Of a stretch of 64,000 nt of DNA, positions 23,024 through 45,450 are shown in pieces. Where the stretch lies: positions 310,001-374,000 of the forward strand of contig NZ_JAEQMG010000048.1 of the NCBI RefSeq assembly GCF_016680995.1. Direction: 5' to 3'. A program made the translations under genes and the position numbers. The notes below the pieces were generated by a model, which saw only the letters and a program-made list of their open reading frames with translations, made no database searches and was not told where the DNA came from. This stretch comes from Ruminococcus difficilis. Lineage in GTDB: Bacteria > Bacillota_A > Clostridia > Oscillospirales > Acutalibacteraceae. How positions within the stretch are numbered: position 1 is the first letter of the stretch; each line of letters starts with the position of its first letter.

Positions 23024-26000
23024 TCAGCCCTTAAAATACTTGACCGCCGACTCAAACATCTTGATATCGTAGTTGCCGGGGACGTTTTGGTACAGACCGC
23101 TGTTCCAGCGCTCGGAGTGTCCCATCTTGCCGAATACTCTGCCGTCGGGCGAGGTAATACCCTCGATCGCGTAGACGGAGTTGTTCGGGTTGAAATGAAC
23201 GTCGGTGGTCGCGTTGCCGGACAAATCAACGTACTGAGTCGCGATCTGGCCGTTTGCGGCTAATTCTCTCACCAATTCCTCGGAGCAATAGAAGCGTCCC
23301 TCGCCGTGCGAGATCGGTACATTGTACACATCGCCGACGTTGGTCAGGCTCAGCCACGGGCTCATATTGGACGCCACACGAGTATGCACGATACGGCTCT
23401 GGTGGCGCGAGATGGTGTTGTAGGTCAGGGTCGGGCAGTTCTCATCGGTGTCGATGATCTTCCCGTAGGGCACCAGACCGAGCTTGATCAGCGCCTGGAA
23501 GCCGTTGCAGATACCGCACATCAAGCCGCCGCGGTTATCGAGCAGATCGGTCACGCCCTCTTTGACTGCCGCGTTGCGGAAGAAGGCGGTGATGAACTTC
23601 GCCGAACCGTCGGGCTCGTCGCCGCCGGAGAAGCCGCCGGGGATAAAGACCATCTGCGCCTCTTTCAGCTCACGTGCAAATTGTTCTACGCTCTGACGAA
23701 TGCCCTCGGCACTCAGGTTGTTGATGACGAGGATCTTCGCGTCAGCGCCCGCGTCAGCCATCGCCTTAGCGGAATCGTACTCACAGTTGGTACCCGGGAA
23801 CGCGGGGATCAGCACCTTGGGCTTAGCCGAGCAAGCGTGTGCTTTTTTGTTCTGTGTTGTGTTAGCGGTATAGGAGAAGGTCTCGACCGGAGCCTTTGTA
23901 TCAGCGATATTGCAGGAATAGACGCCCTCGAGCTTATCCTCATATACCTTTAATATATCATTTTCCGCGACAGACTCGTCACCGTAGGAGAATTTGCCGT
24001 CGTCGGTGATCGAGCCGATCAGCGTACCGTCGAGCGTTTCATCCGTTTCGATCAGGAACGCGCCGTAGCAATAGCCAAAGAGCTTGTCAAGTTCGATCTC
24101 CTCGTTGAAGCTAAAGCCGAAGCCGTTGCCGAACGCGGATTTCATGACCGCCTCGGCGATACCGCCGATGGTCGGCGTATACGCGGCGCAGACCTTGCCC
24201 GCGCGCATCAGGTCGGTGACCTTGTTGTACAGCGCGATCAGGCTGTCGGTCTCAGGCAGACCGTTTTCATCATATTCGGGAGCGAGCAGATATACCTTGT
24301 GGCCTGCCGCCTTGAACTCGGGAGAAATGATGTTCTTCACCTGATCGGTGGTAACGGCGAAGGATACCAGCGTCGGCGGAACGTCGAGATCCTCAAAGCT
24401 GCCGGACATACTGTCCTTGCCGCCGATGGAGCCGATACCGAGGTTCATCTGCGCCTTGAACGCGCCGAGCAGTGCCGAAAGCGGCTTGCCCCAGCGTTTG
24501 CCGTCCGTACCGGGCTTCTCAAAATACTCCTGGAAGGTGAGGTACACATCCTCAAAGGACGCGCCTGTCGCGATCAGCTTGGAAACACTTTCCACGACCG
24601 CCAGATACGCGCCGTGATAGGGACTTTTCTCGGTGATGAGCGGATTGTAGCCCCACGCCATCAGGGAGACGGTGTCGGTGTGCTTCTTCTCCACGCTGAC
24701 CTTCTGCACCATCGCCTGGATCGGGGTGAGCTGATTCTTGCCGCCGAAGGGCATCAGCACCGTACCCGCGCCGATGGTGGAGTCAAAGCGCTCGGAAAGA
24801 CCGCGCTTGGAGCAGATATTCAGATCGGAAGCGAGCTGCTTCATATTCTCGGCAAAGCTGCCGTTGATCTTCTTTGTATAATCCTGAGGAGCGGCGGGCG
24901 TGATATCGATATGCTTCTCCGCGCCGTTAGAATTGAGGAACTCGCGGGAGATATCGACGATCTTGTTGCCGTTCCATGTCATGGTGAGTCGGGGTTCTTC
25001 CTTGACCACGGCAACCGGGCAGGCGTTCAGATTCTCCTCTTTCGCCAACGCCAAAAACGCGTCGACGTTCTCGGGCTCGACGACGACCGCCATGCGCTCC
25101 TGTGATTCGGAGATCGCCAGCTCCGTGCCGTCCAGACCCTCATATTTCTTGGGAACGGCGTTGAGGTCGATATCGAGACCGTCAGCCAGCTCGCCGATCG
25201 CAACGGAAACGCCGCCCGCGCCGAAGTCGTTACAGCGCTTGATCATGCGGGTCGCTTTACGGTTGCGGAACAATCTTTGCAGTTTTCTTTCCTCGGGGGC
25301 GTTACCCTTCTGCACCTCCGCGCCGCAGGTCTCTACCGAATGGGCGTTATGCGCCTTGGAAGAGCCTGTCGCGCCGCCGATACCGTCGCGTCCTGTCGCG
25401 CCGCCCAGCAGGATGACCACATCACCGGGAGCGGGGACCTCGCGGCGGATATTCTCAGCGGGAGCCGCGGCGATGACCGCGCCGATCTCCATACGCTTCG
25501 CGGCATAGCCGGGATGATAGATCTCGTCCACGATGCCGGTCGCCAGACCGATCTGGTTGCCGTAGGAGCTGTAGCCCTGCGCGGCGGTGGTAACGATCTT
25601 GCGCTGTGGGAGCTTACCCTCGATGGTCTCGGACACGGGAACGGTCGGGTCAGCCGCGCCGGTCACACGCATCGCGCCGTAGACATAAGCGCGTCCCGAG
25701 AGCGGATCACGGATCGCGCCGCCGATGCAGGTCGCCGCGCCGCCGAAGGGCTCGATCTCGGTGGGATGGTTATGGGTCTCGTTCTTGAACAGCAGGAGCC
25801 ACGGCTCGATCACGCCGTCGACCTCGACCTCCATCTTCACGGTGCAGGCGTTGATCTCCTCGCTCTCGTCGAGCTTATCGAGCTTGCCGTCCTTTTTGAG
25901 CTGACGGACGGCGATGGTCGCCAGATCCATCAGGCAAACGGGCTTGGTCCTGCCCAAATTCTTTCTAACATCCATATAATCGTTGTACGCCGCCTGTAAC

Positions 26001-26728
26001 AGCTCATCCTCGAACTTCACGCTGTCGATCGTGGTCAGGAAGGTGGTATGACGGCAGTGATCCGACCAGTAGGTGTCGATCATGCGGATCTCGGTGATGG
26101 TCGGGTCACGGTGCTCCGACTGAAAATACTGCTGACAGAAAGCGATATCGTCGATATCCATCGCCAGACCGTAGTCCGCTATGAACTGAGCGAGCCCCTC
26201 TCTGTCGAGCTGATTGAAGCCGTCAAGGGTCTTAACGGTAGTCGGGATCTCATATTGAACCGTCAGGGTCGCGGGCTTCGTGAGTGCCGCCTCACGCGCC
26301 TCGACGGGGTTGATGACATATTTCTTGATCTCAGCGATCTCAGCGTCGGTCAGATCGCCGTACAGGATATAGACCTTTGCCGAACGGATCGTCGGTCGGT
26401 CGCCCTGCGAGATGATCTGGATACACTGGGCGGCGGAATCCGCTCGCTGGTCAAACTGACCGGGCAGGAACTCCACACCGAAGACAGTGGTATGCGCGCC
26501 TTTTTCTATTTCGATCTCAGGCGTCGCGATATCGAGCTGCGGCTCGGAGAACACCGCGCCGACAGCATAATTGAACAGCTCCTCGGTGATATTCTCCGCG
26601 TCGTAGCGGTTGATGACGCGCACATCGGTCAGGGACTTGATCGACAAAAGCTCGTTGATCTCGCCGAGAAGGGCTTTTGCCTCATTCTGCAAGCCCTCTT
26701 TCTTTTCTACAAATACTCTATAAACCAT
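23024..26728 (-). CDS. purL: Phosphoribosylformylglycinamidine synthase (single-chain PurL)
   Basis: A 1234-residue single-chain FGAM synthase that combines the PurS-, PurL- and PurQ-type parts. It converts FGAR, glutamine and ATP to FGAM. Landmarks are the N-terminal PurS-like domain, the tandem PurM-like halves (LFKNETHNHPTEIEPFGGAATCIGG) and a C-terminal class I glutaminase at about 970-1234 with the Cys nucleophile in GLMCGICNGFQ (second Cys, about 1073). The start at 26728 follows ACGGAGGATGAA; an upstream TTG is less likely. It is the last gene of the nucleotide array and ends at a shared terminator. Confidence 0.96.
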   Translation of the reverse strand: MVYRVFVEKKEGLQNEAKALLGEINELLSIKSLTDVRVINRYDAENITEELFNYAVGAVFSEPQLDIATPEIEIEKGAHTTVFGVEFLPGQFDQRADSAAQCIQIISQGDRPTIRSAKVYILYGDLTDAEIAEIKKYVINPVEAREAALTKPATLTVQYEIPTTVKTLDGFNQLDREGLAQFIADYGLAMDIDDIAFCQQYFQSEHRDPTITEIRMIDTYWSDHCRHTTFLTTIDSVKFEDELLQAAYNDYMDVRKNLGRTKPVCLMDLATIAVRQLKKDGKLDKLDESEEINACTVKMEVEVDGVIEPWLLLFKNETHNHPTEIEPFGGAATCIGGAIRDPLSGRAYVYGAMRVTGAADPTVPVSETIEGKLPQRKIVTTAAQGYSSYGNQIGLATGIVDEIYHPGYAAKRMEIGAVIAAAPAENIRREVPAPGDVVILLGGATGRDGIGGATGSSKAHNAHSVETCGAEVQKGNAPEERKLQRLFRNRKATRMIKRCNDFGAGGVSVAIGELADGLDIDLNAVPKKYEGLDGTELAISESQERMAVVVEPENVDAFLALAKEENLNACPVAVVKEEPRLTMTWNGNKIVDISREFLNSNGAEKHIDITPAAPQDYTKKINGSFAENMKQLASDLNICSKRGLSERFDSTIGAGTVLMPFGGKNQLTPIQAMVQKVSVEKKHTDTVSLMAWGYNPLITEKSPYHGAYLAVVESVSKLIATGASFEDVYLTFQEYFEKPGTDGKRWGKPLSALLGAFKAQMNLGIGSIGGKDSMSGSFEDLDVPPTLVSFAVTTDQVKNIISPEFKAAGHKVYLLAPEYDENGLPETDSLIALYNKVTDLMRAGKVCAAYTPTIGGIAEAVMKSAFGNGFGFSFNEEIELDKLFGYCYGAFLIETDETLDGTLIGSITDDGKFSYGDESVAENDILKVYEDKLEGVYSCNIADTKAPVETFSYTANTTQNKKAHACSAKPKVLIPAFPGTNCEYDSAKAMADAGADAKILVINNLSAEGIRQSVEQFARELKEAQMVFIPGGFSGGDEPDGSAKFITAFFRNAAVKEGVTDLLDNRGGLMCGICNGFQALIKLGLVPYGKIIDTDENCPTLTYNTISRHQSRIVHTRVASNMSPWLSLTNVGDVYNVPISHGEGRFYCSEELVRELAANGQIATQYVDLSGNATTDVHFNPNNSVYAIEGITSPDGRVFGKMGHSERWNSGLYQNVPGNYDIKMFESAVKYFKG

Positions 26729-26748
26729 TTCATCCTCCGTAGGAATCA

Positions 26749-26955
26749 AATAGGCTTCCCCTTGGGGGGAAGCTGTCAGACAACGTCTGACTGATGAGGG
26801 GCAGACTTTTCCATTCTTACCCCGAATTCAGTTGCACAAAAATATCCCCTTACAAATGGTGATGTACAACACTCTTTGAATCATTGATGAAAGGATAGGT
26901 GATCCCCTCATCCGTCACCTTTGGTGACACCTTCCCCCCGAGGGGAAGGCTCTTA
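26749..26955. repeat. Palindromic element, TTCCCCTCGGGG family, between purD and purL
   Basis: Bounded by GGCTTCCCCTTGGGGGGAAGC and CCTTCCCCCCGAGGGGAAGGC, with arms CTGATGAGGGGC and GATCCCCTCATCCGTCA. It is related to the element at 4870-5131. Confidence 0.8.
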
Positions 26956-26958: not shown

Positions 26959-28224
26959 TTACCCTTTTGCTTTCAGCGCTCTTTGACCGATATCGTGGCG
27001 GTAAAAGGCGTTGTCAAAATGAATCCGCTCCACCATTTTGTAGGAGCTGTCGATCGCTTCCTGCAAGGTGTCGGCGATCGCGGTCACGCCTAAGACGCGT
27101 CCGCCGGAGGTCAGGAGCTTGCCGTCCTCACACTTAGCGCCCGCGACAAATACACAGTCGGCAATATCCTCGGGGATGGTGATCTCGTAGCCCTTTTCAT
27201 AGGATACGGGATAGCCCTCGCTCGCCATGATGACACAGGCGGCGTTTTTATCCGCAAACTCCACTTCCGTCTGCGCAAGCGTGCCGTCGGTAGTGGCTTT
27301 CATGATGGTGAACAGGTCGGATTTGAGCAGCGGCAGCACCACCTGTGTTTCGGGATCGCCGAAACGGCAGTTGTATTCGATGACCTTGGGGCCGTCCTTT
27401 GTGATCATCAAGCCGAAGTACAGGCATCCCTTGAAGGTTCTGCCCTCGGCGTTCATCGCGTTGATGGTCGGCAAAAAGATCTTCTCCATGCACTCCTTCG
27501 CGACCGCCTCGGTATAGTAAGGATTCGGAGCGACCGTGCCCATGCCGCCGGTGTTCAGACCCGTGTCGTTATCACCGGCACGCTTGTGATCCATCGAGGA
27601 GATCATCGGCACGACGACCTTGCCGTCGGTGAAGCTCAGCACGCTGACCTCGGGGCCTTCGAGAAACTCTTCGACCACGATGCTGTTGCCGCTCTTACCG
27701 AACTTCTTGTCCTTCATGATGGAGATGATCGCGTCCTCTGCCTCTTCGCGGGTCATCGCGATGATGACGCCCTTGCCCAGCGCTAAACCGTCCGCCTTGA
27801 TAACGGTAGGGATCGGAGCGGTCTTGATGTATGCAAGCGCCTTGTCCGCGTCGTCGAACACCTCATAAGCCGCGGTGGGGATGCCGTATTTCTTCATCAG
27901 GTTCTTGGAAAAAACCTTACTGCCCTCGATGATCGCGGCTTCACTGCGCGGACCGAAGCAGGGGACGCCGTGCGCTTCGAGCGCGTCGACACAGCCCAGC
28001 ACCAGCGGATCGTCGGGCGCGACGACCGCGTAGTCGATGCTGTTCTCCACGGCGAAGGTCACGATATTGTCGATATCCGTCGCGCCGATATTGACGCACT
28101 GCGCGTCAGCGGCGATACCGCCGTTGCCCGGCAGGGCGTAGATCACATCGATCTCTTGATTCTCTTTCAGTTTTTTGATGATGGCGTGCTCGCGTCCGCC
28201 GCCGCCTACAACTAATACTTTCAT
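26959..28224 (-). CDS. purD: Phosphoribosylamine-glycine ligase
   Basis: A 421-residue ATP-grasp enzyme that makes GAR from phosphoribosylamine, glycine and ATP. Landmarks are MKVLVVGGGGREHAI at the start, VIKADGLALGKGV (ATP-grasp), FGLMITKDGPKVIEYNCRFGDPETQ (the GARS signature) and a C-terminal GARS domain. The start at 28224 is chosen over an upstream ATG because homologues begin at MKVLV and AAAGGGG lies upstream. It lies between the AICAR transformylase and purL. Confidence 0.96.
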   Translation of the reverse strand: MKVLVVGGGGREHAIIKKLKENQEIDVIYALPGNGGIAADAQCVNIGATDIDNIVTFAVENSIDYAVVAPDDPLVLGCVDALEAHGVPCFGPRSEAAIIEGSKVFSKNLMKKYGIPTAAYEVFDDADKALAYIKTAPIPTVIKADGLALGKGVIIAMTREEAEDAIISIMKDKKFGKSGNSIVVEEFLEGPEVSVLSFTDGKVVVPMISSMDHKRAGDNDTGLNTGGMGTVAPNPYYTEAVAKECMEKIFLPTINAMNAEGRTFKGCLYFGLMITKDGPKVIEYNCRFGDPETQVVLPLLKSDLFTIMKATTDGTLAQTEVEFADKNAACVIMASEGYPVSYEKGYEITIPEDIADCVFVAGAKCEDGKLLTSGGRVLGVTAIADTLQEAIDSSYKMVERIHFDNAFYRHDIGQRALKAKG

Positions 28225-28248
28225 GTTGTTTCCCCTTTTAACCAACTT

Positions 28249-28392: not shown

Positions 28393-29577
28393 TCAATGGT
28401 GGAACAATCTCATGCCCGTGAACGCCATCGCCATGCCGTACTTGTCACAGCAGTCGATGACCGCGTCATCACGGATGGAGCCGCCGGGCTCCGCGATATA
28501 TTTGACGCCGCTCTTGTACGCTCTCTCGATATTGTCGGAGAACGGGAAGAACGCGTCCGAACCAAGCGCGACGTTGTCGATGGTATCGAGATACGCTCTC
28601 TGCTCCTCATCGGTAAAGGGAGCGGGCTGCTCGGTAAAGTATTTCTGCCAGTTGCCGTCGGCGGTAACATCCTCTTCATTGCGGTTGATATAACCGTCGA
28701 TGACGTTGTCGCGGTCGGGACGGCGGATATCCTCGCGGAACGGGAGGTTGAGCACCTTATCGCTCTGGCGGAGGAACCATGTGTCCGCCTTGGAGCCTGC
28801 CAGACGGGTGCAGTGGATACGGCTCTGCTGACCCGCGCCGACGCCGATCGCCTGACCGTCTACCGCGTAGCAGACGGAATTGGACTGGGTATATTTGAGG
28901 GTGATCAGGGAGATGATCAGATCGCGCACAGCGCTCTCGGGCATCTCCTTGTTCTTGGTTACGATGTTCTCGAGCAGAGCGCGGTTGATCTCAAAGTTGT
29001 TTCTGCCCTGCTCAAAGGTGATGCCGTAGACCTGCTTATGCTCAACGGGATCGGGAACATAGTTCGGGTCGATCTGTACGATATTGTAGTTGCCTTTTCT
29101 CTTGGATTTGAGGATCTCGAGCGCCTCGGGCTCATAGCCGGGGGCGATGATGCCGTCACTTACCTCACGCTGGATCATTTTCGCGGTGGTCACGTCGCAG
29201 ACGTCACTCAGCGCGACCCAGTCGCCGAAGGAGCACATACGGTCGGTACCGCGCGCACGCGCATAGGCACAGGCAAGCGGGCTGTCATCCAGACCCTCGA
29301 TGTCATCGACAAAGCAAGCCTTTTTGAGCTTATCGGAAAGCGGTACGCCGACAGCCGCCGAGGTGGGGCTGACGTGCTTGAACGAGGTGACGGCAGGCAG
29401 TCCGAGCGCCTCCTTGAGCTCCTTAACGAGCTGCCAGGAGTTGAACGCGTCGAGGAAGTTGATGTAGCCGGGTCTGCCGCACAGGATCTCGATCGGCAGA
29501 TCAGAACCGTCGTGCATAAAGATCTTCGCGGGTTTCTGGTTGGGATTACAACCGTATTTCAATTCAAATTCTTTCAT
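28393..29577 (-). CDS. AICAR formyltransferase, stand-alone (PurH C-terminal type)
   Basis: A 394-residue protein equal to the transformylase domain of PurH. It transfers a formyl group from 10-formyl-THF to AICAR giving FAICAR. The catalytic Lys-His is in SFKHVSPTSAAVG (about residues 66-78), and SNSVCYAVDGQAIGVGAGQQSR and the AEPGGSIRDD end region are family hallmarks. The N-terminal IMP cyclohydrolase domain of usual bacterial PurH is absent, and a separate cyclohydrolase gene lies directly upstream, so the two activities are on separate chains here. Confidence 0.93.
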   Translation of the reverse strand: MKEFELKYGCNPNQKPAKIFMHDGSDLPIEILCGRPGYINFLDAFNSWQLVKELKEALGLPAVTSFKHVSPTSAAVGVPLSDKLKKACFVDDIEGLDDSPLACAYARARGTDRMCSFGDWVALSDVCDVTTAKMIQREVSDGIIAPGYEPEALEILKSKRKGNYNIVQIDPNYVPDPVEHKQVYGITFEQGRNNFEINRALLENIVTKNKEMPESAVRDLIISLITLKYTQSNSVCYAVDGQAIGVGAGQQSRIHCTRLAGSKADTWFLRQSDKVLNLPFREDIRRPDRDNVIDGYINRNEEDVTADGNWQKYFTEQPAPFTDEEQRAYLDTIDNVALGSDAFFPFSDNIERAYKSGVKYIAEPGGSIRDDAVIDCCDKYGMAMAFTGMRLFHH

Positions 29578-29599: not shown

Positions 29600-29735
29600 G
29601 GCCCCCTTTCCTAAGGGGGCTGTCGCCATAGCGACCGGGGGTTGATACGCAAAATCAAGATGATTTTTCAAAGAATATCGTAATACAACGATCAACCCTC
29701 CGCCCTATCGGGCACCTCCCTTAGAAAAGGGAGGC
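29600..29735. repeat. Palindromic intergenic repeat, CTCCCTTTCC family
   Basis: Bounded by GCCCCCTTTCCTAAGGGGGC and CCTCCCTTAGAAAAGGGAGGC, with inner arms GACCGGGGGTTGAT and GATCAACCCTCCGCCC. It fills the gap between the cyclohydrolase and AICAR transformylase genes. Confidence 0.85.
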
Positions 29736-29737
29736 TA

Positions 29738-30457
29738 TTATCTATTCTTATTCACCAGACGATTCTCTTCCTCGCCGGTCTCGAGGTCGATGTATCTGAC
29801 ATACAGCGAGATCTTGTTGTTCTCGTCCAGCGCGTTCCACAGTTTGTCGGTGAACGCGTCGATGTCATCGTCGATCGCGACTCTCTCCGGCTCTCCCTGG
29901 AAGGTCGGGATCGGGTTGCCGTCGCAGACATAGGTGTGGATGAAGTGACCTAAGCCCGCCTTGGACGGATAGCTGAAAAGGTAACGCGCGCAGTCGCTGC
30001 CCTCGGGGTCGATGGACTTGAGGATGGACATCTTATAGCTGAAATCGCCGTCCTCAAAGGTCAGCATACCGCTGATACGGGGTGTGAGATTCGGCGCGTC
30101 GGGCTCGAATTCACGGCTCTTGAGAGAACCGTTGAAGCACTTGCCGTTCTGCAGACCCTCATAGATGGTGTCGGTCTGGTCGCCGTTGGTGACGATCAGG
30201 TTGTTCTCATACTCACGGATCGCCGCATAGATGATCAGCGAGGGATCCTCGACCTTAGATGCGTCGAAGGGCTCGGTGAATACCGCGCCGTCGCGCTCGG
30301 TGAAGATGCGGTTTCTGGAATTGGCGCTGCGACCCATGATGAAGTAAGCGGTCGCCGCCTTGGTGCCGTCGGCAGTCTTGCCGATGATGATGCCTCTGCC
30401 CGGATAGGTGTTGCCGTCGAGCAGCTCGGCGATATCGTTGATTTTATAGATGTTCAT
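29738..30457 (-). CDS. purO: IMP cyclohydrolase, archaeal PurO type
   Basis: A 239-residue protein matching the IMP_cyclohyd (PurO) family rather than the PurH N-terminal domain. It closes the ring of FAICAR to IMP, the last step of purine synthesis. Family features are the early NTYPGRGIIIGKT segment, YFIMGRSANSRNRIF, the middle YEGLQNGKCFNGSLKSREFEPDAPNLTPRISG stretch, and FSYPSKAGLGHFIHTY. The start at 30457 (MNIYKIND) is 9 nt after GGGGG. Its neighbours are purN and the stand-alone AICAR transformylase, its direct substrate supplier. Confidence 0.88.
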   Translation of the reverse strand: MNIYKINDIAELLDGNTYPGRGIIIGKTADGTKAATAYFIMGRSANSRNRIFTERDGAVFTEPFDASKVEDPSLIIYAAIREYENNLIVTNGDQTDTIYEGLQNGKCFNGSLKSREFEPDAPNLTPRISGMLTFEDGDFSYKMSILKSIDPEGSDCARYLFSYPSKAGLGHFIHTYVCDGNPIPTFQGEPERVAIDDDIDAFTDKLWNALDENNKISLYVRYIDLETGEEENRLVNKNR

Positions 30458-30494
30458 TTTCATATACCCCCAAAACAATGATTGAAACCTTATA

Positions 30495-30647
30495 AGCCTC
30501 CCTTTTCTAAGGGAGGTGGTGCGAAGCACCGGAGGGTTGTCACATACGTAAAGATGGTTTTCTGAAACAGTGATCAAAACGCATCCTATCAACCCTCAGT
30601 CGCCTTGACACAAGTGTCCGGCGACAGCTCCCTTAGGAAAGGGAGCC
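30495..30647. repeat. Palindromic intergenic repeat, CTCCCTTTCC family
   Basis: Bounded by GCCTCCCTTTTCTAAGGGAGG and CTCCCTTAGGAAAGGGAGCC, with GGAGGGTTGTC and ATCAACCCTCAGTCGCC arms. It abuts the stop codon of purN. Confidence 0.85.
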
Positions 30648-31249
30648 TATTGTATCAGCGAAGCCGAAACCTTTTCGACAGATTCGGGCAGGATGATCCA
30701 CTCCGCCTGCTCCATGACGCGTCGTTGCAGGAGCTCGGGCGTGTCGCCGTCCTTTACCTCGACCGCCTTTTGCGCGATGATCTCGCCGCCGTCGGGGATC
30801 TCGTTGACAAAGTGGACGGTCGCGCCGGTCACCTTGACGCCTTTTTCAAGCGCCGCCTCATGGACCCGCAGGCCATAGTATCCCGTTCCACAGAAAGAAG
30901 GGATTAAGGACGGATGGATGTTGAGGATACGGTGGTCATAGCGCGCGGTGAATCGCTCCGATAAAATCGACATGAAGCCCGCGAGAACGATCAGATCGAT
31001 CCCGTTTTCCTCGAGCGCTTCGATCATGGCGGTCTCAAATGCCTCTTGTGTTTTTAATTCTTTTTTAGAAATATATAACGCTTTGATCCCGGCATTCTCG
31101 GCGCGGGTCAGCGCATAGGCGTTTTGGTTGTTGGAGATCACCAGCGTGATCTCGCCGCTATGGATGATCCCGCTGTTCTGCGCGTCAATCAGCGCCTGCA
31201 GGTTCGTGCCGCCGCCGGAAACCAAAACAGCGATCTTCTCCTTTAACAT
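30647..31249 (-). CDS. purN: Phosphoribosylglycinamide formyltransferase
   Basis: A 200-residue folate-dependent GAR transformylase. The N-terminal phosphate loop [13 protein letters not shown], the catalytic Asn/His of [13 protein letters not shown] and the Asp-bearing [17 protein letters not shown] are all present. Its ATG overlaps the 3' end of purM by 7 nt. Its stop codon lies at the edge of a palindromic repeat. Confidence 0.96.
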
Positions 31250-32292
31250 AACTCGATCTTCTCCTCGCCCTGCGCCTTGACGATCTCGCCGATAAGATAA
31301 GCGTCCTCGCCCTCAGCCTTGAGGATCGCGAGCGCCTCATCCGCCTGAGAAGCAGGGACGACGATGCTCATGCCGACGCCCATGTTGAAGGTGTTGAACA
31401 TATCGTGCTCCGAGATACCGCCCTTTTCCTGAATGAGGCGGAAGATCGGCAGGATACGGACAGCGTCCTTCCGGATATTCGCGCACAGTCCGTCGGGGAT
31501 GGAACGCGGGATGTTCTCATAGAAACCGCCGCCGGTGATATGCGAGATGCCCTTGACCTGCACCTTGTCGAGCAGCGCCAGAACGGGCTTGACATAGATC
31601 CTGGTCGGGGTGAGCAGGGTCTCGCCCACGCTCTTGCCGCCGAGAGCCTCCACAGGTGTTTTGATATCGGCGTTCTCTACGTCAAATACCTTGCGAACGA
31701 GAGAAAAACCGTTAGAATGAACGCCGGAGGACGGCAGCGCGATGACGACGTCGCCGACCGCCATCTTCTTGTTATCGATGATCTTATCTTTATCGACCAC
31801 ACCGGTGCTGTAACCGGCGAGGTCGTATTCGTCCTCGGGATAGAAGCCGGGCATCTCAGCGGTCTCGCCGCCGATCAGCGCCGCGCCGGACTGTACACAG
31901 CCGTCGGCAACGCCCTTGACGATGTCCGCGATCCGCTCGGGAACGTTCTTGCCGCAGGCGATATAGTCGAGGAACAACAGCGGCTTCGCGCCCACGCAAA
32001 CGATATCGTTGACGCACATCGCCACGCAGTCGATACCCACGGTATCGTGCTTGTCCATAAGGAACGCGAGCTTGAGCTTGGTGCCGACGCCGTCGGTGCC
32101 GCTGACCAGAACCGGCTTGGTGATGCCGGTCAGATCGAGCTCAAACAGTCCGCCGAAGCCGCCCACATCGGAGCATACGCCCGCCGTCGCGGTACGCGCG
32201 ACATGCTGCTTCATCAACTCGACTGCCTTGTAACCCGCGGTGATATCGACGCCCGCCGCGGCGTAAGCGTCGGATTTGGAGTTTTTATTCAT
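31243..32292 (-). CDS. purM: Phosphoribosylformylglycinamidine cyclo-ligase (AIR synthase)
   Basis: A 349-residue AIR synthase that converts FGAM to AIR with ATP. Landmarks are [44 protein letters not shown] and the C-terminal [16 protein letters not shown]. The start at 32292 follows AGAAAGG; an earlier ATG exists but homologues start here. It overlaps purN. Confidence 0.96.
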
Positions 32293-32328
32293 ATTCTTAA
32301 CCTTTCTGCTCATTTCAATGAACATTTT

Positions 32329-32436
32329 ATAGGGAAGGGTCTCGACCCTACATTATTTGTTTCTCGCTTTGCTCGATCAATAGTACAATCCCTCACCGCG
32401 CTCAGGCGCGGAGCTCCCTTTACCAAAGGGAGCCTT
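32329..32436. repeat. Partial palindromic repeats between purF and purM
   Basis: Two short remnants lie in this 159-nt gap: AGGGAAGGGTCTCGACCCT at 32330-32349 and GAGCTCCCTTTACCAAAGGGAGCC at 32411-32434. They are half-elements of families seen elsewhere. No gene. Confidence 0.65.
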
Positions 32437-32451
32437 AAAAGGCACACGTGC

Positions 32452-33876
32452 CTACTCTTCGCCGTCCCAGCAGTAGGTGCACAGCTCACATTTGGGGAGA
32501 CCGATCGCCTCTACGATGCCGTCGAGGGACTGGAAATCCAGCGAATCGAATTTCAGCTTTCCGCAAATGGTTTTTCTCAGGTTTTTGCCGCGGGTCGTGG
32601 AACCGTCGGCGTATTCCTTGATATGATTGAAGCCCTCTTCCCCCTCGAGCTCGAGGATGACTCTGCGCGCGATCAGATCCATGTCGGAAGTATTGCGCGA
32701 GAAGTTGAGGTACTTACAGCCGTACATGATCGGCGGACACGCCGAGCGCATATGTACGCTCTTGGCGCCGTTCTCATACAGGAACTCGACCGTTTCTCTG
32801 AGCTGAGTACCGCGCACGATGGAGTCGTCCACAAAGAGCAGGTCTTTGTCGGTGATCAGATCATAGACGGGGATCTGCTTCATCTTCGCGATCTTGTTGC
32901 GGTCGTTCTGGTTGGTCGGCATGAAGGAGCGCGACCAGGTCGGTGTGTATTTGATGAACGCGCGCGCGAAGGGCTTGCCGCTCTCATTGGCGTAGCCGAT
33001 CGCGTGAGGCGTACCCGAATCCGGCACACCGCCGACATAATCGACGTTGATATCGCCGAGATTTTTCTGATCATGGTGCGCCATGATCGCGCCGTTGCGG
33101 TAGCGCATCAGCTCGACGTTCACGCCCTCATAGGTCGAGGTCGGATAGCCGTAGTAGCTCCACAAGAAGGAGCAGATACGCTTTTTCTTGCCGGGCTTCG
33201 CGAGCTGTTTGAGATAGGTCGGCGTGAGCAGAACGATCTCGCCGGGGCCTAACTCTCTGTGGTCCTCATAGCCGAGCTTCTGGTACGCGTAGCTCTCAAA
33301 GGACACCGCGTAACCGTACTCGCTCCTGCCGATACAGACAGGCAGTCTGCCGACCTTATCACGCGCGGCGATCAGAGAGCCGTCCTCCATCAGGATCAGG
33401 ATGTTCTGTGTGCCGTCGATGATGCTCTGGGCAAACTTGATGCCCTCGGCAAAGCTCGACTGTGTATCGATCAGCGCGGCGAGCAACTCGGTGGAATTCA
33501 CCTTGCCGCCGGTCATCGCGTCGAAATGGCCGTAAGAATGCTTGAGGTGCCTTTCGATCAGCTCCTCCGCGTTATTGATGATACCCACGCTGCAGATCGC
33601 GTAGGTGCCTAAATGAGAGCGGATCAGCATCGGCTGAGGATCGGTGTCCGAAATGACGCCGATCGCCGAGGTGCCGACCATCTCATCAAAAATATGCAGA
33701 AACTTTGTTCTGAACGGTGCGTTTTCTATATTATGGATCTTTCTTTGTAAGCCTACCCCGGGATCGTAGGCGGCGAGTCCGCCGCGCCGTGTGCCGAGAT
33801 GGGAATGGTAGTCAACGCCGAAGAACACATCCATCATGCAGTCTTCGGTTGACGTTATGCCGAAAAAGCCACCCAT
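32452..33876 (-). CDS. purF: Amidophosphoribosyltransferase homologue lacking the cysteine nucleophile
   Basis: A 474-residue PurF-family protein; PurF makes phosphoribosylamine from PRPP and glutamine. The PRPP site FVDDSIVRGTQLRETV (about residues 345-360) is intact, as is the C-terminal CELCTYC cluster of the iron-sulfur Bacillus-type enzymes. The Ntn glutaminase half, however, starts MGGFFGI where active enzymes read (M)CGxxGI, so Gly replaces the catalytic Cys, and the NGN oxyanion region reads IINNAEEL. The start is firm because only a repeat lies upstream. It may use free ammonia or an external donor, or a second PurF may exist elsewhere. It is placed between purE and purM. Confidence 0.85.
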   Translation of the reverse strand: MGGFFGITSTEDCMMDVFFGVDYHSHLGTRRGGLAAYDPGVGLQRKIHNIENAPFRTKFLHIFDEMVGTSAIGVISDTDPQPMLIRSHLGTYAICSVGIINNAEELIERHLKHSYGHFDAMTGGKVNSTELLAALIDTQSSFAEGIKFAQSIIDGTQNILILMEDGSLIAARDKVGRLPVCIGRSEYGYAVSFESYAYQKLGYEDHRELGPGEIVLLTPTYLKQLAKPGKKKRICSFLWSYYGYPTSTYEGVNVELMRYRNGAIMAHHDQKNLGDINVDYVGGVPDSGTPHAIGYANESGKPFARAFIKYTPTWSRSFMPTNQNDRNKIAKMKQIPVYDLITDKDLLFVDDSIVRGTQLRETVEFLYENGAKSVHMRSACPPIMYGCKYLNFSRNTSDMDLIARRVILELEGEEGFNHIKEYADGSTTRGKNLRKTICGKLKFDSLDFQSLDGIVEAIGLPKCELCTYCWDGEE

Positions 33877-33894
33877 GATATACCTCCAAATTTT

Positions 33895-34035
33895 GGTGAA
33901 CGGTGAATGGTGAACGGTGAATGGTGGATGGCGGGACACCCGCACCCGATCTATAGGATCTATCTCATGCAATACAAATCAAAAACGCCTCAGCGTTTCC
34001 CACCACCGTTAACTGTTATCCGTTATCCGTTAACC
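33895..34035. repeat. Heptad-TIR repeat, short internal variant
   Basis: Left terminus of GTGAACG/GTGAATG units and right terminus CCACCACCGTTAACTGTTATCC with more units up to GTTAACC, as in the elements at 777-1006 and 3788-4038, but with a different, shorter core. Its right end encodes the last residues and the stop of purE. Confidence 0.8.
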
Positions 34036-34517
34036 CTATCTAAGATTCCTTTATCTTTCTCCAAAACCACTGCCGCGTCCGATTTACGCTTGGCGTCCAG
34101 CTTTGCCGCCAGATCGGCGTCTTCTACCGCGATGATCTGCGCCGCTAAGAGCGCCGCGTTTGCCGCGCCGTTCAGTGCGACGGTCGCCACCGGGATACCG
34201 GTGGGCATCTGCACGGTAGAGAGCAGCGCGTCCAGACCGTCCATCATGCCGCCCTTACAGGGGATGCCGATGACGGGCAGGGTGGTGTTCGCGGCGATCG
34301 CGCCGGCTAAGTGCGCCGCCATACCCGCCGCGGCGATCAATACGCCGAAGCCGCGCTCGCGAGCGTTTTTCGCGAATTCAGACGCTTCAACGGGAGTGCG
34401 GTGAGCGGAATATACGTGTACTTCAAAAGGAATGTCGAGGGTCGACAGCATGTCGGTCGCCTTTTTGACGATCGGCAAATCGCTGTCGGAGCCCATGATG
34501 ATCCCGACTTTTTTCAT
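34023..34517 (-). CDS. purE: N5-carboxyaminoimidazole ribonucleotide mutase (class I PurE)
   Basis: A 164-residue PurE with the phosphate loop [11 protein letters not shown] and the catalytic-His motif YSAHRTP, plus [15 protein letters not shown] and [13 protein letters not shown]. Class I enzymes work with PurK, which is not in the window; length and motifs do not exclude direct CO2 use. The protein ends in Val-Asn-Gly because the adjoining heptad repeat provides the terminal codons and stop. Confidence 0.94.
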
Positions 34518-34541
34518 ATACTGATTCCTCCAAACATATTG

Positions 34542-34681
34542 AGCCTCCCTTTTCTAAGGGAGGTGCCCCGACAGGGGCGGAGGGTTGCCGCGTTATCGCA
34601 TAATCACTTTATGATAAACCATCAAAATACAGCGTATCAACCCTCAGTCACTTCGTGACAGCTCCCATAGGAAAGGGAGCC
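34542..34681. repeat. Palindromic intergenic repeat, CTCCCTTTCC family
   Basis: Bounded by GCCTCCCTTTTCTAAGGGAGG and CTCCCATAGGAAAGGGAGCC, with GGAGGGTTGCCGCG and ATCAACCCTCAGTCAC arms. It fills the gap between guaB and purE. Confidence 0.85.
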
Positions 34682-34683
34682 GT

Positions 34684-36189
34684 TTATTTCATCGCGGAGC
34701 TCTTATCCTTCTGGATAACGTCGTGCGCACCGCCCTCGACGATCGAGGTCGCGGATACGAGGGTGAGCTTCGCCTTTTCCTGTAATTCGCGAATGGTCAG
34801 CGCGCCGCAGTTGCACATGGTCGACTTGACCTTACTGAGCGACAGCGCGACATTGTCCTTCAACGAACCCGCGTACGGTACGAGAGAATCGACGCCTTCT
34901 TCAAAGCTGAGCTTCTTATCGCCGCCGAGGTCATAGCGCTGCCAGTTTCTCGCGCGCTGAGAGCCCTCGCCCCAATACTCTTTATAATAGGTACCGTTGA
35001 TGCTGACCTTGTTGGACGGGCTCTCGTCAAAGCGGGCAAAATATCTGCCCAGCATGATGAAGTCGGCGCCCATCGCCAGCGCCAGCGTGATATGGTGATC
35101 GTATACGATACCGCCGTCGGAGCAGACGGGGATGTATACGCCGGTCTCTTCAAAATACTTATCTCTCTCGGCACAGACCTCGATCAGCGCGGTAGCCTGA
35201 CCGCGGCCGATACCCTTGGTCTCGCGGGTGATACAGATCGAACCGCCGCCGATACCGACCTTGATGAAGTCGGCGCCACAGTCGGCGAGATAGCGGAAGC
35301 CCTCCGCGTCGACGACGTTGCCCGCGCCCACCTTGACGCTGTCGCCGTAGTTCTCACGGATCCAGTCGATGGTCAGCTTCTGCCACTCCGAGAAGCCCTC
35401 GGAGGAGTCGATGCACAGCACGTCGGCGCCCGCCTCGATCAGCGCGGGAACACGCTCGGCATAGTCGCGGGTGTTGATGCCCGCGCCGACAACATAACGC
35501 TTGTGCTCATCGAGCAGTTCGTTGGGATTCGCCTTATGGCTGTCGTAGTCCTTGCGGAAAACGAAGTATCTCATTTTGCCGTCCTTAGAGATCACGGGCA
35601 GGGAATTGAGCTTGTGATCCCAGATGATGTCGTTGCACTCGGACAGGGTCGCGCCCTCATAGGCGTAGATCAGCTTATCGAACGGGGTCATGAAGCTCTC
35701 GACCTTCTCGTTCTTATCCATACGGCTGACGCGGTAGTCACGGCTGGTGACGACGCCGAGGAGCTTGCCGTCGGGCTTACCGCCCTCAGTGACAGCCAGC
35801 GTGCTGTGACCGGTGCGCTCGGTCAGCTCGATGACGTCCGCCAGAGTCGCGTCGGGGCGGATATTGCTGTCGCTCTGGACAAAGCCCGCCTTATAGCTCT
35901 TGGCTCTTTTGACCATCGCCGCCTCGTTCTCAACGCTCTGGGAGCCGTAGATGAAGCTCACACCGCCCTGCGTCGCGAGGGCTACGGCGAGCTTGTCGCC
36001 GGATACCGCCTGCATGATCGCGGACACGAGCGGGATATTCATGGTGATCGCGCTCTCTTCACCCTTCTTGTACTTGACCAGAGGGGTTCTCAGGGTGACG
36101 TTAGCGGGTACGCACTCCGAAGAGGAGTAACCCGGGATGAGCAGATATTCATTAAAAGTATGGGCAGGTTCATTGATAAAAGTTGCCAT
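34684..36189 (-). CDS. guaB: IMP dehydrogenase
   Basis: A 501-residue IMP dehydrogenase, which oxidises IMP to XMP on the way to GMP. The barrel is interrupted by two CBS repeats at about residues 105-225. The active-site Cys is in [17 protein letters not shown], and the mobile-flap Arg-Tyr is in [12 protein letters not shown]. The ATG is only 2 nt beyond the pyrI stop and its ribosome site AAGGAAG lies inside pyrI, so the purine half of the array is transcriptionally joined to the pyrimidine half. Confidence 0.94.
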
Positions 36190-36191
36190 CT

Positions 36192-36617
36192 TTAATACTT
36201 CCTTTCAGCTTTGGTTTCGCAGTAGATACAGCGGTAGATCTTATTCTCTTTATCCGTCAGGCGGAATACATGATCGAGCTCCTGTTCCGTCGTGGTGATA
36301 CAACGCGGATTCATACAGCGGATGACGTTGGTCAGCTCGAGCGGCATCTCGATACAGCGCTTGCGTACCAGCTCGCCGTCACGAATGATGTTGACGGTCG
36401 CCTGCGGATCGACGAAGCCGATCACGTCCATGTTGATATGGGCTCTGGAATCGATCTTGATGATATCCTTCTTCGCCATCTTCTTTGAGGTGACGTTTTT
36501 GATGATCGCGACGGAGCAGTCCAGATCATCGAGGTGCAGCAGCTCATACAGCCGCATACCGCGTCCGGCGGTGATGTGGTCGATGACGACGCCGTCACGG
36601 ATGGAATCGATATTCAT
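36192..36617 (-). CDS. pyrI: Aspartate carbamoyltransferase regulatory subunit
   Basis: A 141-residue PyrI with an N-terminal nucleotide-binding domain ([16 protein letters not shown]) and a C-terminal zinc domain with four cysteines (CMNPRC and CIYC). In E. coli PyrI binds CTP and ATP to control PyrB. Its ATG overlaps the pyrB stop (4 nt). A separate pyrI is less usual in Firmicutes than in enterobacteria but is known in Clostridia. Confidence 0.95.
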
Positions 36618-40963: not shown

Positions 40964-43900
40964 TCAGGCGTCGATCGTCGAGATCGTCAGCGTGGTCTCC
41001 TCGAGTACATCGAGCAGAACACGAACGGTATCTAATGATGTAAAGATGGTCACGCCGTTCTCGACCGCCGTCTGACGGATGGCGGTACCGTCCTCATAGT
41101 GGACGCCGGACATGATGGCACGGGTGTTGATGACGTAGCTGACATAGCCCGCGCGGATCGCGTCGAGGATCTCGGTGCTGCCCTCGCTGATCTTGCCCAG
41201 CTTACGGGTCTTGATACCGTTCTCACGCATGACCTTTGCGGTCAGGTCGGTCGCCTCGATGTTGAAGCCGAGGTTGTAGAAGCGGCGTACCAGCGGAACA
41301 GCTTCTTCCTTATCCTCATCGGCAAGGGTCACGATGACGGTGCCGTAGTTCTGCACCTTGGTGCCTGCCGCAACGAGTGCCTTATACATGGCTCTCGACA
41401 GCTTTTTATCATAACCGATGGCTTCACCGGTCGACTTCATCTCGGGAGAGAGATAAGCGTCCAGACCCTTGATCTTCTGGAAGGAGAATACCGGAACCTT
41501 GACGTAGTATCGCTTCTTCTCTTCGGGATAGAGCTGGAAGATACCCTGCTCTTTCAGGCTCTTGCCGAGGATGACCTCGGTCGCGATATCCGCGAGGCTG
41601 TAGCCGGTGGACTTAGACAGGAATGGAACGGTTCTCGAAGAACGCGGGTTGACCTCGATGATGTAGACGTCATCGTTTTCATCAACGATGAACTGGATAT
41701 TGTACAGACCGATGATGCCGATGGCTTTACCTAATTTCTTAGCATACTGTAAAATGATACCCTTGACCTTGTCGCTGATGGAGAAAGAGGGGTAAACGGA
41801 GATGGAGTCGCCGGAGTGAACGCCGGTACGCTCGACCAGCTCCATGATACCGGGTACGAATACATCGATACCGTCGCAGATCGCGTCGACCTCGACCTCC
41901 TTACCCATGATGTATTTATCGACCAAAACAGGTTTATCCTCGTCGATCTCAACCGCGGTTTTCAGATAATGTCTGAGGTCTTCCTCTTTGCTGACGATCT
42001 GCATCGCGCGGCCGCCGAGCACGAAGGACGGACGGACGAGCACGGGATAACCGATCTCGGCGGCGGCTTTGACGCCCTCCTCGATCGAGGTGACCGCCTG
42101 ACCCGCGGGCTGCGGGATGCCGAGCTCCTTGATGATCGCGTTGAAGGAATCACGATTCTCCGCTCTTTCAATGGCGGCGCAGTCGGTACCGATGATCTTC
42201 ACACCGCGATCCATGAGCGGCTGTGCGAGGTTGATGGCGGTCTGACCGCCCAGAGAAGCGATAACGCCCTCGGGCTGTTCAAAGTCGATGATCGCCATGA
42301 CGTCCTCGGGAGTGAGGGGCTCAAAGTAGAGCTTATCGGCGGTGGTGTAGTCGGTGGAAACGGTCTCGGGGTTGTTGTTGATGATGATCGCCTCATAACC
42401 CGCGCGACGGATGGTCTGTACCGCGTGAACGGTACTGTAGTCGAACTCTACGCCCTGACCGATACGGATGGGACCCGCGCCGAGCACGATGATCTTCTTT
42501 TTGTCGCTCAGTCTGGATGCGTTCTCACCCGTGTAGGACGAGTAGAGATACGCGATATATTTGCCGGTGTGCAGGGTATCGACCATCTTGAAGATCGGGG
42601 TGATACCGTTTGCTTTTCTGGTATTGTAGATCTCAACCTCGGGAGTGTCCCAAAGCGAGGAAATGTATTCATCGGAAAAGCCCATGATCTTGGCGGCCTT
42701 GAGGGTCTCGATATCGCCCTTGTTTGCCTTTAAGGTGCCCTCCATATCGACGATCTTCTTGAAGCTCTCAAGGAACAGTTCGGTGATCATGGTGATCTCG
42801 TGGAGCTTCTCGATCGAAGTACCGCGGCGGAGCAGCTCGAACACGGCGTAAACGTTGTCGTCCTTGAACTCCTTGATATAGTCAAACAGCTCGTCGTCGG
42901 AGAAAGAGTCGAACTTCGCGAGGTGGAAGTGGCACACGCCTGTCTCCAGCGAACGAACGGATTTCAGACAGCACTCCTCGAGTGTGGAGCCGATGCCCAT
43001 GACCTCACCGGTCGCCTTCATCTGGGTGCCGAGGGTATTGGGCGCGTCGGCGAATTTATCAAACGGAAAACGCGGGAACTTCGCGACGATGTAATCGAGG
43101 CTCGGCTCGATCGCCGCCGTACCGCCCGCTACGGGGATCTCCTCGAGCGCCATACCCATGGCGATCTTCGCGGTCACGCGGGCGATCGGATAACCCGACG
43201 CCTTGGAAGCGAGCGCGGAGGAACGTGAAACTCTGGGGTTGACCTCGATCAGGTAATATTCGCTGGAATTCGGATTCAGCGCGAACTGGACGTTACAGCC
43301 GCCCTCGATCTTCAGTTCACGGATAATCTTGATCGCGGAATCGTTCAGCATTTTGAGGTCTTTATCATTGAGTGAAAGGATCGGCGCGACAACGATGCTG
43401 TCACCGGTGTGGACGCCGACGGGGTCGACGTTCTCCATGCCGCAAATGGTGATCGCGGTGTCGTTGGAGTCACGCATGACCTCGAACTCGATCTCTTTAT
43501 AGCCCTTGACGGACTTCTCAATCAGCACCTGATGGACGGGACTGAGGGCAAAAGCCTGTTTTCCGATCTCCAAGAGTTCAGCTTCATTGTCCGCAAAGCC
43601 GCCGCCGGTACCGCCGAGGGTGAACGCGGGACGCAAGACGACAGGATAACCTACGGCCTTGGCTGCTTCCTTTGCTTCATCAAGATTGTAGGTGATCTGC
43701 GACGGGATGACCGGCTCGCCGATCGATTCGCACATCTCCTTGAACAGCTCTCTGTCCTCAGCGCGCTCGATACTCTCGGAGGATGTGCCGAGCAGCTGTA
43801 CGCCGCATTCCTTGAGGATACCCTTGCGCTCGAGCTGCATCGCGAGGTTCAGACCCGTCTGTCCGCCGATACCGGGGACGATCGCGTCGGGACGCTCGAA

Positions 43901-44137
43901 TCTCAGGATCTTCGCGATATACTCGAGGGTGAGCGGCTCCATATAGACCTTGTCCGCGATCTGGGTATCCGTCATGATGGTCGCGGGGTTTGAGTTACAC
44001 AGGATGACCTCGTAGCCCTCTTCTTTCAGCGCCAAACACGCTTGAGTGCCGGCGTAGTCGAACTCGGCAGCCTGACCGATGACGATAGGTCCCGAGCCGA
44101 TGATGAGTACCTTTTTCACATCTGTTCTTTTTGCCAT
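40964..44137 (-). CDS. carB: Carbamoyl phosphate synthase large subunit
   Basis: A 1057-residue enzyme with two homologous ATP-grasp halves (each opening with VLIIGSGPIVIGQ / IVLGAGPIRIGQG) and a C-terminal MGS-like allosteric domain. It makes carbamoyl phosphate from bicarbonate, ammonia and two ATP. The small glutaminase subunit gene, carA, normally adjacent, is not found in this window, so it must lie elsewhere. AGGTATGAAAA precedes the ATG. It lies between pyrC and pyrK. Confidence 0.97.
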   Translation of the reverse strand: MAKRTDVKKVLIIGSGPIVIGQAAEFDYAGTQACLALKEEGYEVILCNSNPATIMTDTQIADKVYMEPLTLEYIAKILRFERPDAIVPGIGGQTGLNLAMQLERKGILKECGVQLLGTSSESIERAEDRELFKEMCESIGEPVIPSQITYNLDEAKEAAKAVGYPVVLRPAFTLGGTGGGFADNEAELLEIGKQAFALSPVHQVLIEKSVKGYKEIEFEVMRDSNDTAITICGMENVDPVGVHTGDSIVVAPILSLNDKDLKMLNDSAIKIIRELKIEGGCNVQFALNPNSSEYYLIEVNPRVSRSSALASKASGYPIARVTAKIAMGMALEEIPVAGGTAAIEPSLDYIVAKFPRFPFDKFADAPNTLGTQMKATGEVMGIGSTLEECCLKSVRSLETGVCHFHLAKFDSFSDDELFDYIKEFKDDNVYAVFELLRRGTSIEKLHEITMITELFLESFKKIVDMEGTLKANKGDIETLKAAKIMGFSDEYISSLWDTPEVEIYNTRKANGITPIFKMVDTLHTGKYIAYLYSSYTGENASRLSDKKKIIVLGAGPIRIGQGVEFDYSTVHAVQTIRRAGYEAIIINNNPETVSTDYTTADKLYFEPLTPEDVMAIIDFEQPEGVIASLGGQTAINLAQPLMDRGVKIIGTDCAAIERAENRDSFNAIIKELGIPQPAGQAVTSIEEGVKAAAEIGYPVLVRPSFVLGGRAMQIVSKEEDLRHYLKTAVEIDEDKPVLVDKYIMGKEVEVDAICDGIDVFVPGIMELVERTGVHSGDSISVYPSFSISDKVKGIILQYAKKLGKAIGIIGLYNIQFIVDENDDVYIIEVNPRSSRTVPFLSKSTGYSLADIATEVILGKSLKEQGIFQLYPEEKKRYYVKVPVFSFQKIKGLDAYLSPEMKSTGEAIGYDKKLSRAMYKALVAAGTKVQNYGTVIVTLADEDKEEAVPLVRRFYNLGFNIEATDLTAKVMRENGIKTRKLGKISEGSTEILDAIRAGYVSYVINTRAIMSGVHYEDGTAIRQTAVENGVTIFTSLDTVRVLLDVLEETTLTISTIDA

Positions 44138-44235: not shown

Positions 44236-45450
44236 TTATATGCTGTACACTTTCACGCCGTCCTTGACGGTCATCAGGCATACGCCGTTGAGCTTCCAGC
44301 CCTCAAAGGGCGTCGCCCTGCCCATCGACCGGAAGACGGCGGGATCTACGGTGAATTCTTTATCCAGATCCCATATCGTATAATCATTTTTCTTTAACGG
44401 AATATTGAAACGCTCGCGCGCGTTGAACACCAACAGCTCCATCAGCCTGTCCATCGTGATGAACCCGGTCTTGACGAGCTTCGTATACAGCACCGGGAAC
44501 GCGGTCTCGATACCGACGATACCAAAGGCGGATTTCTCCAGCCCTCTCGCCTTTTCCTCCGCGCTGTGCGGTGCGTGATCGGTGGAGATCATGTCGATCG
44601 TGCCGTCCTTGATCCCTTGCAGCAGCGCCTCGCGGTCGGCTTTATCTCTCAGCGGCGGATTCATCTTGAAGCGTCCGTCCTCTTTTAGATCGCTGTCGTC
44701 CATCACGAGGTAATGCGGCGCGGTCTCACAGGTGATATCCACGCCCTCAGCTTTCGCCTGACGGATCAGCTCCACGCTCTCTTTGGTCGAGATATGGCAC
44801 ACATGATAGCCGCAGCCGGTCTCACGGCACAGCTCGATATCACGCTTGATCGGACCCCACTCGCTCTGTGAGCAGATCCCGCGGTGACCGTGCGCCTTGG
44901 CGTAGTCGCCGTCATGGATATAGCCGCCGTGCAACAGGCTGTTGTCCTCGCAGTGCGCGACGATCAATTTGCCGAGCGCCTTTGCTCTTGTCATCGCCTC
45001 GCGCATCATCGCTGCATCCTGCACGCCTCTGCCGTCATCGGAGAAGGCGACAACATCCTTTGCCATCCCTTCGAGGTCGGCGAGCTGTTCTCCCCTCTCT
45101 CCCACGGTGATCGCGCCGTAGGGCAGGACTTCGATCACCGCGTCACGCTCGATGATCTCGAGCTGACGGCGCAGATTATCGACGCTGTCGGGCACAGGGT
45201 TCAGGTTCGGCATCGTGCAGACGGCAGTGTATCCGCCGCGTGCCGCGGCAGCCGATCCGGTAGCGATTTTTTCTTTATAAGAAAATCCCGGCTCGCGAAA
45301 ATGCACATGCACATCACAAAAGCCGGGAAAGACAACAATATTATCGGAGCACTGCGAAAAGTCCTCAGGGCAGAAAAGCGCACTGTCGACCGAGGGCAAA
45401 ACGTCAGTTTTTTCGATTCTCTTACAAGCATATACCTTCATACCGCTCAT
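44236..45450 (-). CDS. pyrC: Dihydroorotase
   Basis: A 404-residue class I dihydroorotase that closes carbamoyl aspartate to dihydroorotate. Metal ligands are in DVHVHFREPG, further His in VAHCEDNSL and the AETAPHYL-like TCETAPHYLVMDD, and the catalytic Asp in STDHAPHS. The start follows AAAGGAG by 9 nt. It is the first gene of the pyr/pur array, about 225 nt after the predicted transcription start. Confidence 0.95.
   Translation of the reverse strand: MSGMKVYACKRIEKTDVLPSVDSALFCPEDFSQCSDNIVVFPGFCDVHVHFREPGFSYKEKIATGSAAAARGGYTAVCTMPNLNPVPDSVDNLRRQLEIIERDAVIEVLPYGAITVGERGEQLADLEGMAKDVVAFSDDGRGVQDAAMMREAMTRAKALGKLIVAHCEDNSLLHGGYIHDGDYAKAHGHRGICSQSEWGPIKRDIELCRETGCGYHVCHISTKESVELIRQAKAEGVDITCETAPHYLVMDDSDLKEDGRFKMNPPLRDKADREALLQGIKDGTIDMISTDHAPHSAEEKARGLEKSAFGIVGIETAFPVLYTKLVKTGFITMDRLMELLVFNARERFNIPLKKNDYTIWDLDKEFTVDPAVFRSMGRATPFEGWKLNGVCLMTVKDGVKVYSI

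Follow-up and report, generated by a model that had tools for sequence, protein, structure and literature searches.

The reaction of PRPP with ammonia is a known half-reaction of PurF (PMC12017579, in the portion available), and according to the excerpt of a second study the E. coli enzyme still uses ammonia when its cysteine is replaced by alanine or serine (PMC3261824). The same excerpt describes the closest precedent for the proteins reported here: the crenarchaeal PurF' and Mlab_0150 of Methanocorpusculum are PurF-like, have no N-terminal cysteine and lie near pur genes, ammonia use by PurF' having already been proposed there as a hypothesis, and each crenarchaeon studied also has a PurF with the cysteine beside PurF' (PMC3261824). 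A comparable change affects human CPS1, where, as the excerpted account has it, the catalytic cysteine of the ancestral glutaminase domain has become serine, the domain has been kept and external ammonia is used (PMC4655335). In the literature within our reach (titles and the beginnings of abstracts, most subscription journals lying outside it) we found no description of a bacterial Cys-less PurF family, of its service as sole PurF, or of its parallel with a lone CarB.

The window analysed here, a stretch of 64,000 nucleotides from Ruminococcus difficilis, carries a gene for such a Cys-less PurF homologue. With canonical PurF (EC 2.4.2.14; TIGR01134) the protein shares the PRTase domain, the PRPP loop, the cysteines of putative Fe-S type and the place in the pur operon before purM; its family differs in having no N-terminal cysteine and no visible propeptide, in the loss of the glutaminase residues and in its long branch. 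The likeness to archaeal PurF', judged by the published description as excerpted, consists of the missing N-terminal cysteine and the proximity to pur genes (stand-alone members excepted), whereas PurF' is always found beside a PurF with the cysteine and of our 166 carriers in the order sample 67 show no canonical match, confirmed for 36 by a recheck. Relative to CPS1, this would be the same kind of evolutionary step, with the glutaminase cysteine replaced and the domain retained, although CPS1, by the excerpted account, is another enzyme, has a class I glutaminase domain and serves ammonia detoxification rather than purine synthesis. On the sequence evidence, and with a probability of about three in four, we regard Cys-less PurF as a PRPP amidotransferase of purine synthesis that is glutaminase-dead and uses ammonia.

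The window gene and its family

Cys-less purF belongs to a cluster with the order purE, Cys-less purF, purM, purN, IMP cyclohydrolase-like gene (PF07826), AICAR formyltransferase gene, purD and purL (Table 1). It encodes a PurF homologue of 474 residues that begins MGGFFGITSTEDCMMDVFFGVDYHSHLGTRRGG... (Met-Gly-Gly, MGGFFGITS), and a GGAGGT ribosome site precedes its ATG. The protein matches PDB chains 1ao0 and 1gph (E 1e-37), which we take to be B. subtilis PurF, and scores 163.2 bits against TIGR01134 (purF), below the curated cut-off of 350. An earlier sequence-only reading of the gene had pointed to a start MGGFFGI in place of Met-Cys-Gly and to a changed oxyanion NGN region, and alignment bears out both observations: Gly2 falls on the catalytic Cys of canonical PurFs, and SVGI replaces HNGN. 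In addition, the R-Y-x-T-T-G stretch is deleted and the position of the glutamine-binding Asp holds Ser, the roles of this stretch, of the NG oxyanion and of the Asp in the glutamine site being those that we presume for the canonical enzyme. The same reading had named an alternative start and a sequencing error as other possible origins of the glycine, and both were looked for and rejected. Extending the frame to its longest form (from a TTG at 33972) brings in 32 further residues, none of them Cys, and in relatives such as L004 the frame is closed by stops a short way upstream, which rules out an alternative start yielding an N-terminal Cys, and an error is ruled out by the absence of Cys at this position from all 124 loci of the family.

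The further claim that the rest of the purine pathway is present, with an intact PurL glutaminase, stands for PurL and for purE, purM, purN, the PF07826 gene, AICAR formyltransferase and purD; inspection by eye of the ORFs listed for 24000-42000 of the window revealed neither purC nor purB. Between 28393 and 30592, the genes point to final purine steps via a monofunctional AICAR formyltransferase and a PurO-like IMP cyclohydrolase, not the bifunctional PurH. An Rfam scan of the window returned one tRNA and one S10 leader (S10-Clostridia ribosomal protein leader, 21839-21916, minus strand), and at 47053-49702 a transposase-like ORF on the minus strand lies beside a reverse-transcriptase-like ORF on the plus strand, as judged by eye.

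Table 1. Purine and pyrimidine genes of the window (positions within the 64,000-nucleotide stretch).
Feature	Position	Strand	Remarks
purL, large form	23024..26749	-	glutaminase Cys motif GICNGFQ present
purD	26959..28245	-	TIGR00877, 526.1 bits
AICAR formyltransferase, monofunctional (PRK07106 type)	28393..29577	-	NF005492, 696.2 bits
IMP cyclohydrolase-like, PurO-like (PF07826)	29738..30592	-	below NCBIfam cut-offs
purN	30647..31249	-	TIGR00639, 203.4 bits
purM	31243..32325	-	directly downstream of Cys-less purF; TIGR00878, 444 bits
Cys-less PurF homologue	32452..33876	-	glutaminase residues missing from the Ntn domain (about residues 2-225); PRPP loop of the PRTase domain intact; four cysteines of putative Fe-S type
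purE	34023..34517	-	directly upstream of Cys-less purF; TIGR01162, 195.8 bits (cut-off 149.6)
carB, carbamoyl-phosphate synthase large subunit	40964..44137	-	directly behind pyrC-like gene
pyrC-like dihydroorotase	44236..45450	-	directly upstream of carB

A scan of named genomes gave 212 relatives of the window protein, of which 80 loci were kept, and the family set comprises 124 loci with 121 distinct proteins (three identical pairs included). The Cys position is Gly in 115 of these loci, Ser in nine and Cys in none, one alignment being left out of the count because it misplaced the first residues of the family relative to the Cys column. Residues were compared between 114 members, chosen by their Gly-Gly start, and 29 canonical PurFs; the ten loci outside this set are the nine with Ser plus L077, which has Gly with no preceding Met. 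All 114 members have lost the R-Y-x-T-T-G stretch and the first N of HNGN, more than 90% have lost the glutamine-site Asp (mostly to Ser, Thr or Ala) and the His, and QHRGQES of canonical PurF has become SHLGTRR. The PRPP loop and C-terminal cysteines, which the sequence-only reading described as kept, are indeed so throughout the family: the loop DDSIVRGT is found in 113-114 of 114 members per position, as are the four cysteines (C235, C387, C466 and C469) that align with the cysteines of B. subtilis PurF which we take to be its Fe-S ligands (29 of 29 canonical proteins); they are putative cluster ligands of Fe-S type. The PPi loop PDSG is present in 114 of 114 members, and Lys309, Arg316, Gln323 and Arg326 are kept (112-114 of 114 per position).

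The Ntn domain of the family has invariant residues of its own (D22, Y23, H24, H26, H48, R56, S76, D77 and N127). Purifying selection is strong in both halves of the protein, with a median dN/dS, over 177 pairs drawn from 70 sequences, of 0.093 for the Ntn part and 0.073 for the PRTase part. A quick tree of 54 family and 25 canonical rows groups the family as a single clade, separated from the canonical sequences by a very long branch. As a base rate, 40 of 40 canonical PurFs of the phylum carry the Cys, these being the top of the match list and not a random draw, and among the first 30 PurFs of the canonical clade it is missing in one. This protein (L147, genome G167) is the lone PurF match of its genome, lies in a pur operon, reads LSGIIGVFS and has MDGA in place of HNGN, and it likely represents a second, separate loss of the Cys.

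Genomes with Cys-less PurF as the only match

Among the 297 genomes of the order sample, 67 have Cys-less PurF only, 99 have it together with a further match, 110 have canonical PurF only and 21 have none, a four-way split made from the number and strength of the matches, in which a split gene or a second copy of the Cys-less form could also count as a further match. Most genomes are draft assemblies. A recheck with TIGR01134 covered the 36 of the 67 sole carriers with an estimated completeness of at least 97%, the other 31 being classed by matches alone: none of the 36 had a protein over the cut-off, against 13 of 14 control genomes. Sole carriers are spread over 44 genus codes, by a count made by eye. 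In the phylum sample, Cys-less PurF occurs in 20 of 299 genomes, all 20 with two or more matches, so that sole carriers came to light in the order sample alone. For three of the 99 co-carriers (G001, G227 and G277) and for ten other carriers, from the phylum sample, we read the canonical copy and saw its Cys. A purM match accompanies 65 of the 67 sole carriers (all 65 over the purM cut-off; the exceptions are G314 and G368), 98 of the 99 genomes with both, 108 of the 110 with canonical PurF only and three of the 21 without PurF, four of these matches falling below the cut-off, two of them in the 21 genomes without PurF.

In 17 of the 20 sole-carrier loci that we opened, Cys-less purF is part of a pur operon and immediately precedes purM, with purN and the genes for IMP cyclohydrolase and AICAR formyltransferase further along; purE precedes in 15 of the 20 and purL lies within the stretch in 13, with a purC-like gene in between in 12 of the 17 operons. 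The glutaminase motif of PurL was seen in ten of the 20 loci; in the other ten, purL falls wholly or partly beyond the stretch, or none was recognised. Cys-less purF stands alone in the three remaining loci (L097, L103 and L107), and of their genomes two have purM elsewhere and G314 is without purM and carB. Over the whole family, one of the next three recognised genes is purM in 102 of 124 loci, and six of the remaining 22 have less than 2.5 kb of downstream sequence. Among 60 opened loci, three (L145, L146 and L148) hold a canonical PurF in the same slot of the pur operon, and in L127 the Cys-less and canonical forms stand in tandem. Since sole-PurF genomes keep purM and the operon slot is shared with canonical PurF, Cys-less PurF stands in for PurF.

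Five genes in gaps of the operons were identified with Pfam, as SAICAR synthetase, formate/nitrite transporter, serine hydroxymethyltransferase, adenylosuccinate lyase and an Imm33/DUF1266 protein. The transporter family gene (PF01226, 86 bits) lies between purM and purN at 12166-12860 of L094, the locus for which PF01226 was tested, and similar reading frames occur in L096 and L099; in pur operons it perhaps feeds formate to the formylation steps.

In genomes with a further match, the Cys-less gene lies outside the pur operon in 12 of 20 opened loci, and distant members stand alone where the genome's pur operon holds canonical PurF; these stand-alone members may have a different role. Around 15 stand-alone loci no neighbour family recurred in four or more, except for an ABC-transporter-like group in seven. 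Riboswitch control of Cys-less purF was considered and rejected: the Rfam scan of the window gave only the tRNA and the S10 leader, and 14 of the 15 stand-alone loci scanned have no riboswitch directly upstream. The c-di-GMP-I aptamers in L115 and L121 lie on the downstream side of the gene.

Nitrogen donor and competing explanations

In the mechanism that we propose, the C-terminal PRTase domain would bind PRPP and join it to ammonia, giving 5-phosphoribosylamine, with free ammonia supplying the nitrogen; the N-terminal Ntn domain would be retained as a conserved part unable to split glutamine. The formation of phosphoribosylamine we infer from genome content, and free ammonia as the donor from the loss of the glutaminase site together with the finding that 17 pur-operon stretches of sole carriers hold no class I glutaminase Cys motif besides that of PurL (reading frames of at least 120 residues; PurL's motif in ten). 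Ammonia use is most likely because the glutaminase parts are lost and some genomes seem to be without another PurF copy. Of the two options left by the sequence-only reading, an enzyme that takes ammonia or another amine donor and one that no longer makes phosphoribosylamine, the former is favoured because the remainder of the pathway is retained in sole-PurF genomes. Such retention falls short of strict proof of PurF function, since in Salmonella purF mutants, according to the portion of the report available, phosphoribosylamine also arises by other routes, through TrpD or from ribose 5-phosphate plus ammonia (PMC3485032). Glutamine is not generally avoided, since the glutaminase motif of PurL is intact in the window and was seen in ten of the 20 loci.

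The invariant residues of the Ntn domain leave room for a site for another donor, a ligand or a regulator. Phosphoribosylamine could thus be made with ammonia from a separate, docked glutaminase, or with another amine donor at a rebuilt Ntn site, as could be expected of a domain on which selection is nearly as strong as on the rest of the protein and which has acquired new invariant polar residues. We consider this unlikely: a partner glutaminase appears neither in the 17 operon stretches, where PurL's is the only class I motif in frames of at least 120 residues, nor among the five gap genes tested with Pfam, and the 15 stand-alone loci share no neighbour family in four or more besides the ABC-transporter-like group. 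A non-catalytic or regulatory role, as a PRPP-binding pseudo-subunit tuning canonical PurF, would fit the further match found beside the Cys-less form in all 20 carriers of the phylum sample and 99 of the 166 in the order sample, as well as the position of 12 of the 20 opened loci of this kind away from the pur operon. However, 67 genomes have no canonical match to be tuned (36 of them rechecked), yet 65 of these have purM, and the copies in operons occupy precisely the position of purF and keep the PRPP loop. For the family at large such a role is very improbable; it could hold for the stand-alone members.

The sole-PurF state itself would be an artefact if canonical purF were merely missing from incomplete metagenome-assembled genomes, and the assemblies are mostly drafts, the nearest genome in our set being 87% complete with 8% contamination. 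This explanation is barely credible, given that all 36 sole carriers with at least 97% estimated completeness are without canonical purF by the PurF model, that purM is missing in only two of 67 sole carriers and that the pattern recurs across the 44 genus codes.

Ammonia is plentiful in the gut and rumen, and there may be a link to ruminococci that require ammonia. The carriers of the ammonia-using form that we favour include many uncultured gut and rumen Clostridia. In these, if the proposal is correct, the committed step of purine synthesis would need no glutamine, should be insensitive to glutamine analogues and would tie growth to free ammonia. Genomes with the Cys-less form as the only PurF found would also offer a natural test of the hypothesis put forward for archaeal PurF'. 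Proteins of the family carry the automatic annotation amidophosphoribosyltransferase, which would mislead metabolic models about the nitrogen donor.

Lone CarB and the close relatives of the window

A second enzyme of the window also appears to be without its glutaminase. No carA, the gene for the glutaminase subunit, was found beside carB, nor anywhere in the window by motif or tblastn, which makes this carB, from its sequence, a candidate ammonia-fed carbamoyl-phosphate synthase. For comparison, E. coli CarB makes carbamoyl phosphate from ammonia, though at high levels, in the excerpted account, which calls ammonia use by E. coli CPS likely physiologically irrelevant (PMC6245113).

We examined close relatives of the window gene at ten of 18 loci with at least 87% identity, in genomes of unstated completeness. 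The second purF with a Cys that the sequence-only reading had proposed to look for is present in part: a canonical PurF over the cut-off is found elsewhere in seven of the ten genomes, its gene being followed in each by carA and carB, and is absent in three, as it is in all 36 rechecked sole carriers. In the nearest genome of our set (L003), an ammonium transporter gene joined to that of P-II precedes canonical purF. Genomes G596, G598 and G600 have neither canonical PurF nor carA, and carB is present in all three (in pieces in G598 and G600).

At E 1e-60, a threshold at which the carA counts include seven genomes below the curated cut-off (231 vs 224), carA is absent from 33 of 67 sole carriers as against 16 of 209 genomes with canonical PurF, and it is present in 14 of 14 control genomes. 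Of these carA-less genomes, 29 of 33 and 11 of 16, respectively, retain carB, so that a lone CarB is found in 29 of 67 sole carriers and 11 of 209 genomes with canonical PurF. Among 17 genus codes with genomes of both kinds (assessed by eye), carA is lost together with canonical PurF in seven, seven show no difference, three are mixed and none shows the opposite. Loss of carA is associated with loss of canonical PurF with Fisher p values of 8e-13 and 2e-12, which overstate the evidence because the genomes are related and a single deletion could account for both losses, the two genes adjoining in the window's relatives. The glutaminase losses of PurF and CPS are not strictly tied, since 11 genomes with canonical PurF also have a lone CarB.

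Taken together with the ammonia-using PurF, the joined pyr-pur cluster of the window could be an ammonia-fed assembly line, with a PurF without glutaminase and a CarB without CarA. The relatives' separate module of canonical purF, carA and carB, which sits behind the ammonium transporter and P-II where readable, would be glutamine-fed, presumably for nitrogen-poor times, and many lineages would have dropped it and would start purines and pyrimidines from free ammonia. We offer this picture tentatively, at odds that we put slightly short of even. Six genomes (G345, G310, G327, G542, G401 and G370) have CarB frames of about 1340-1360 residues, compared with the usual length of about 1060, which suggests an extra domain.
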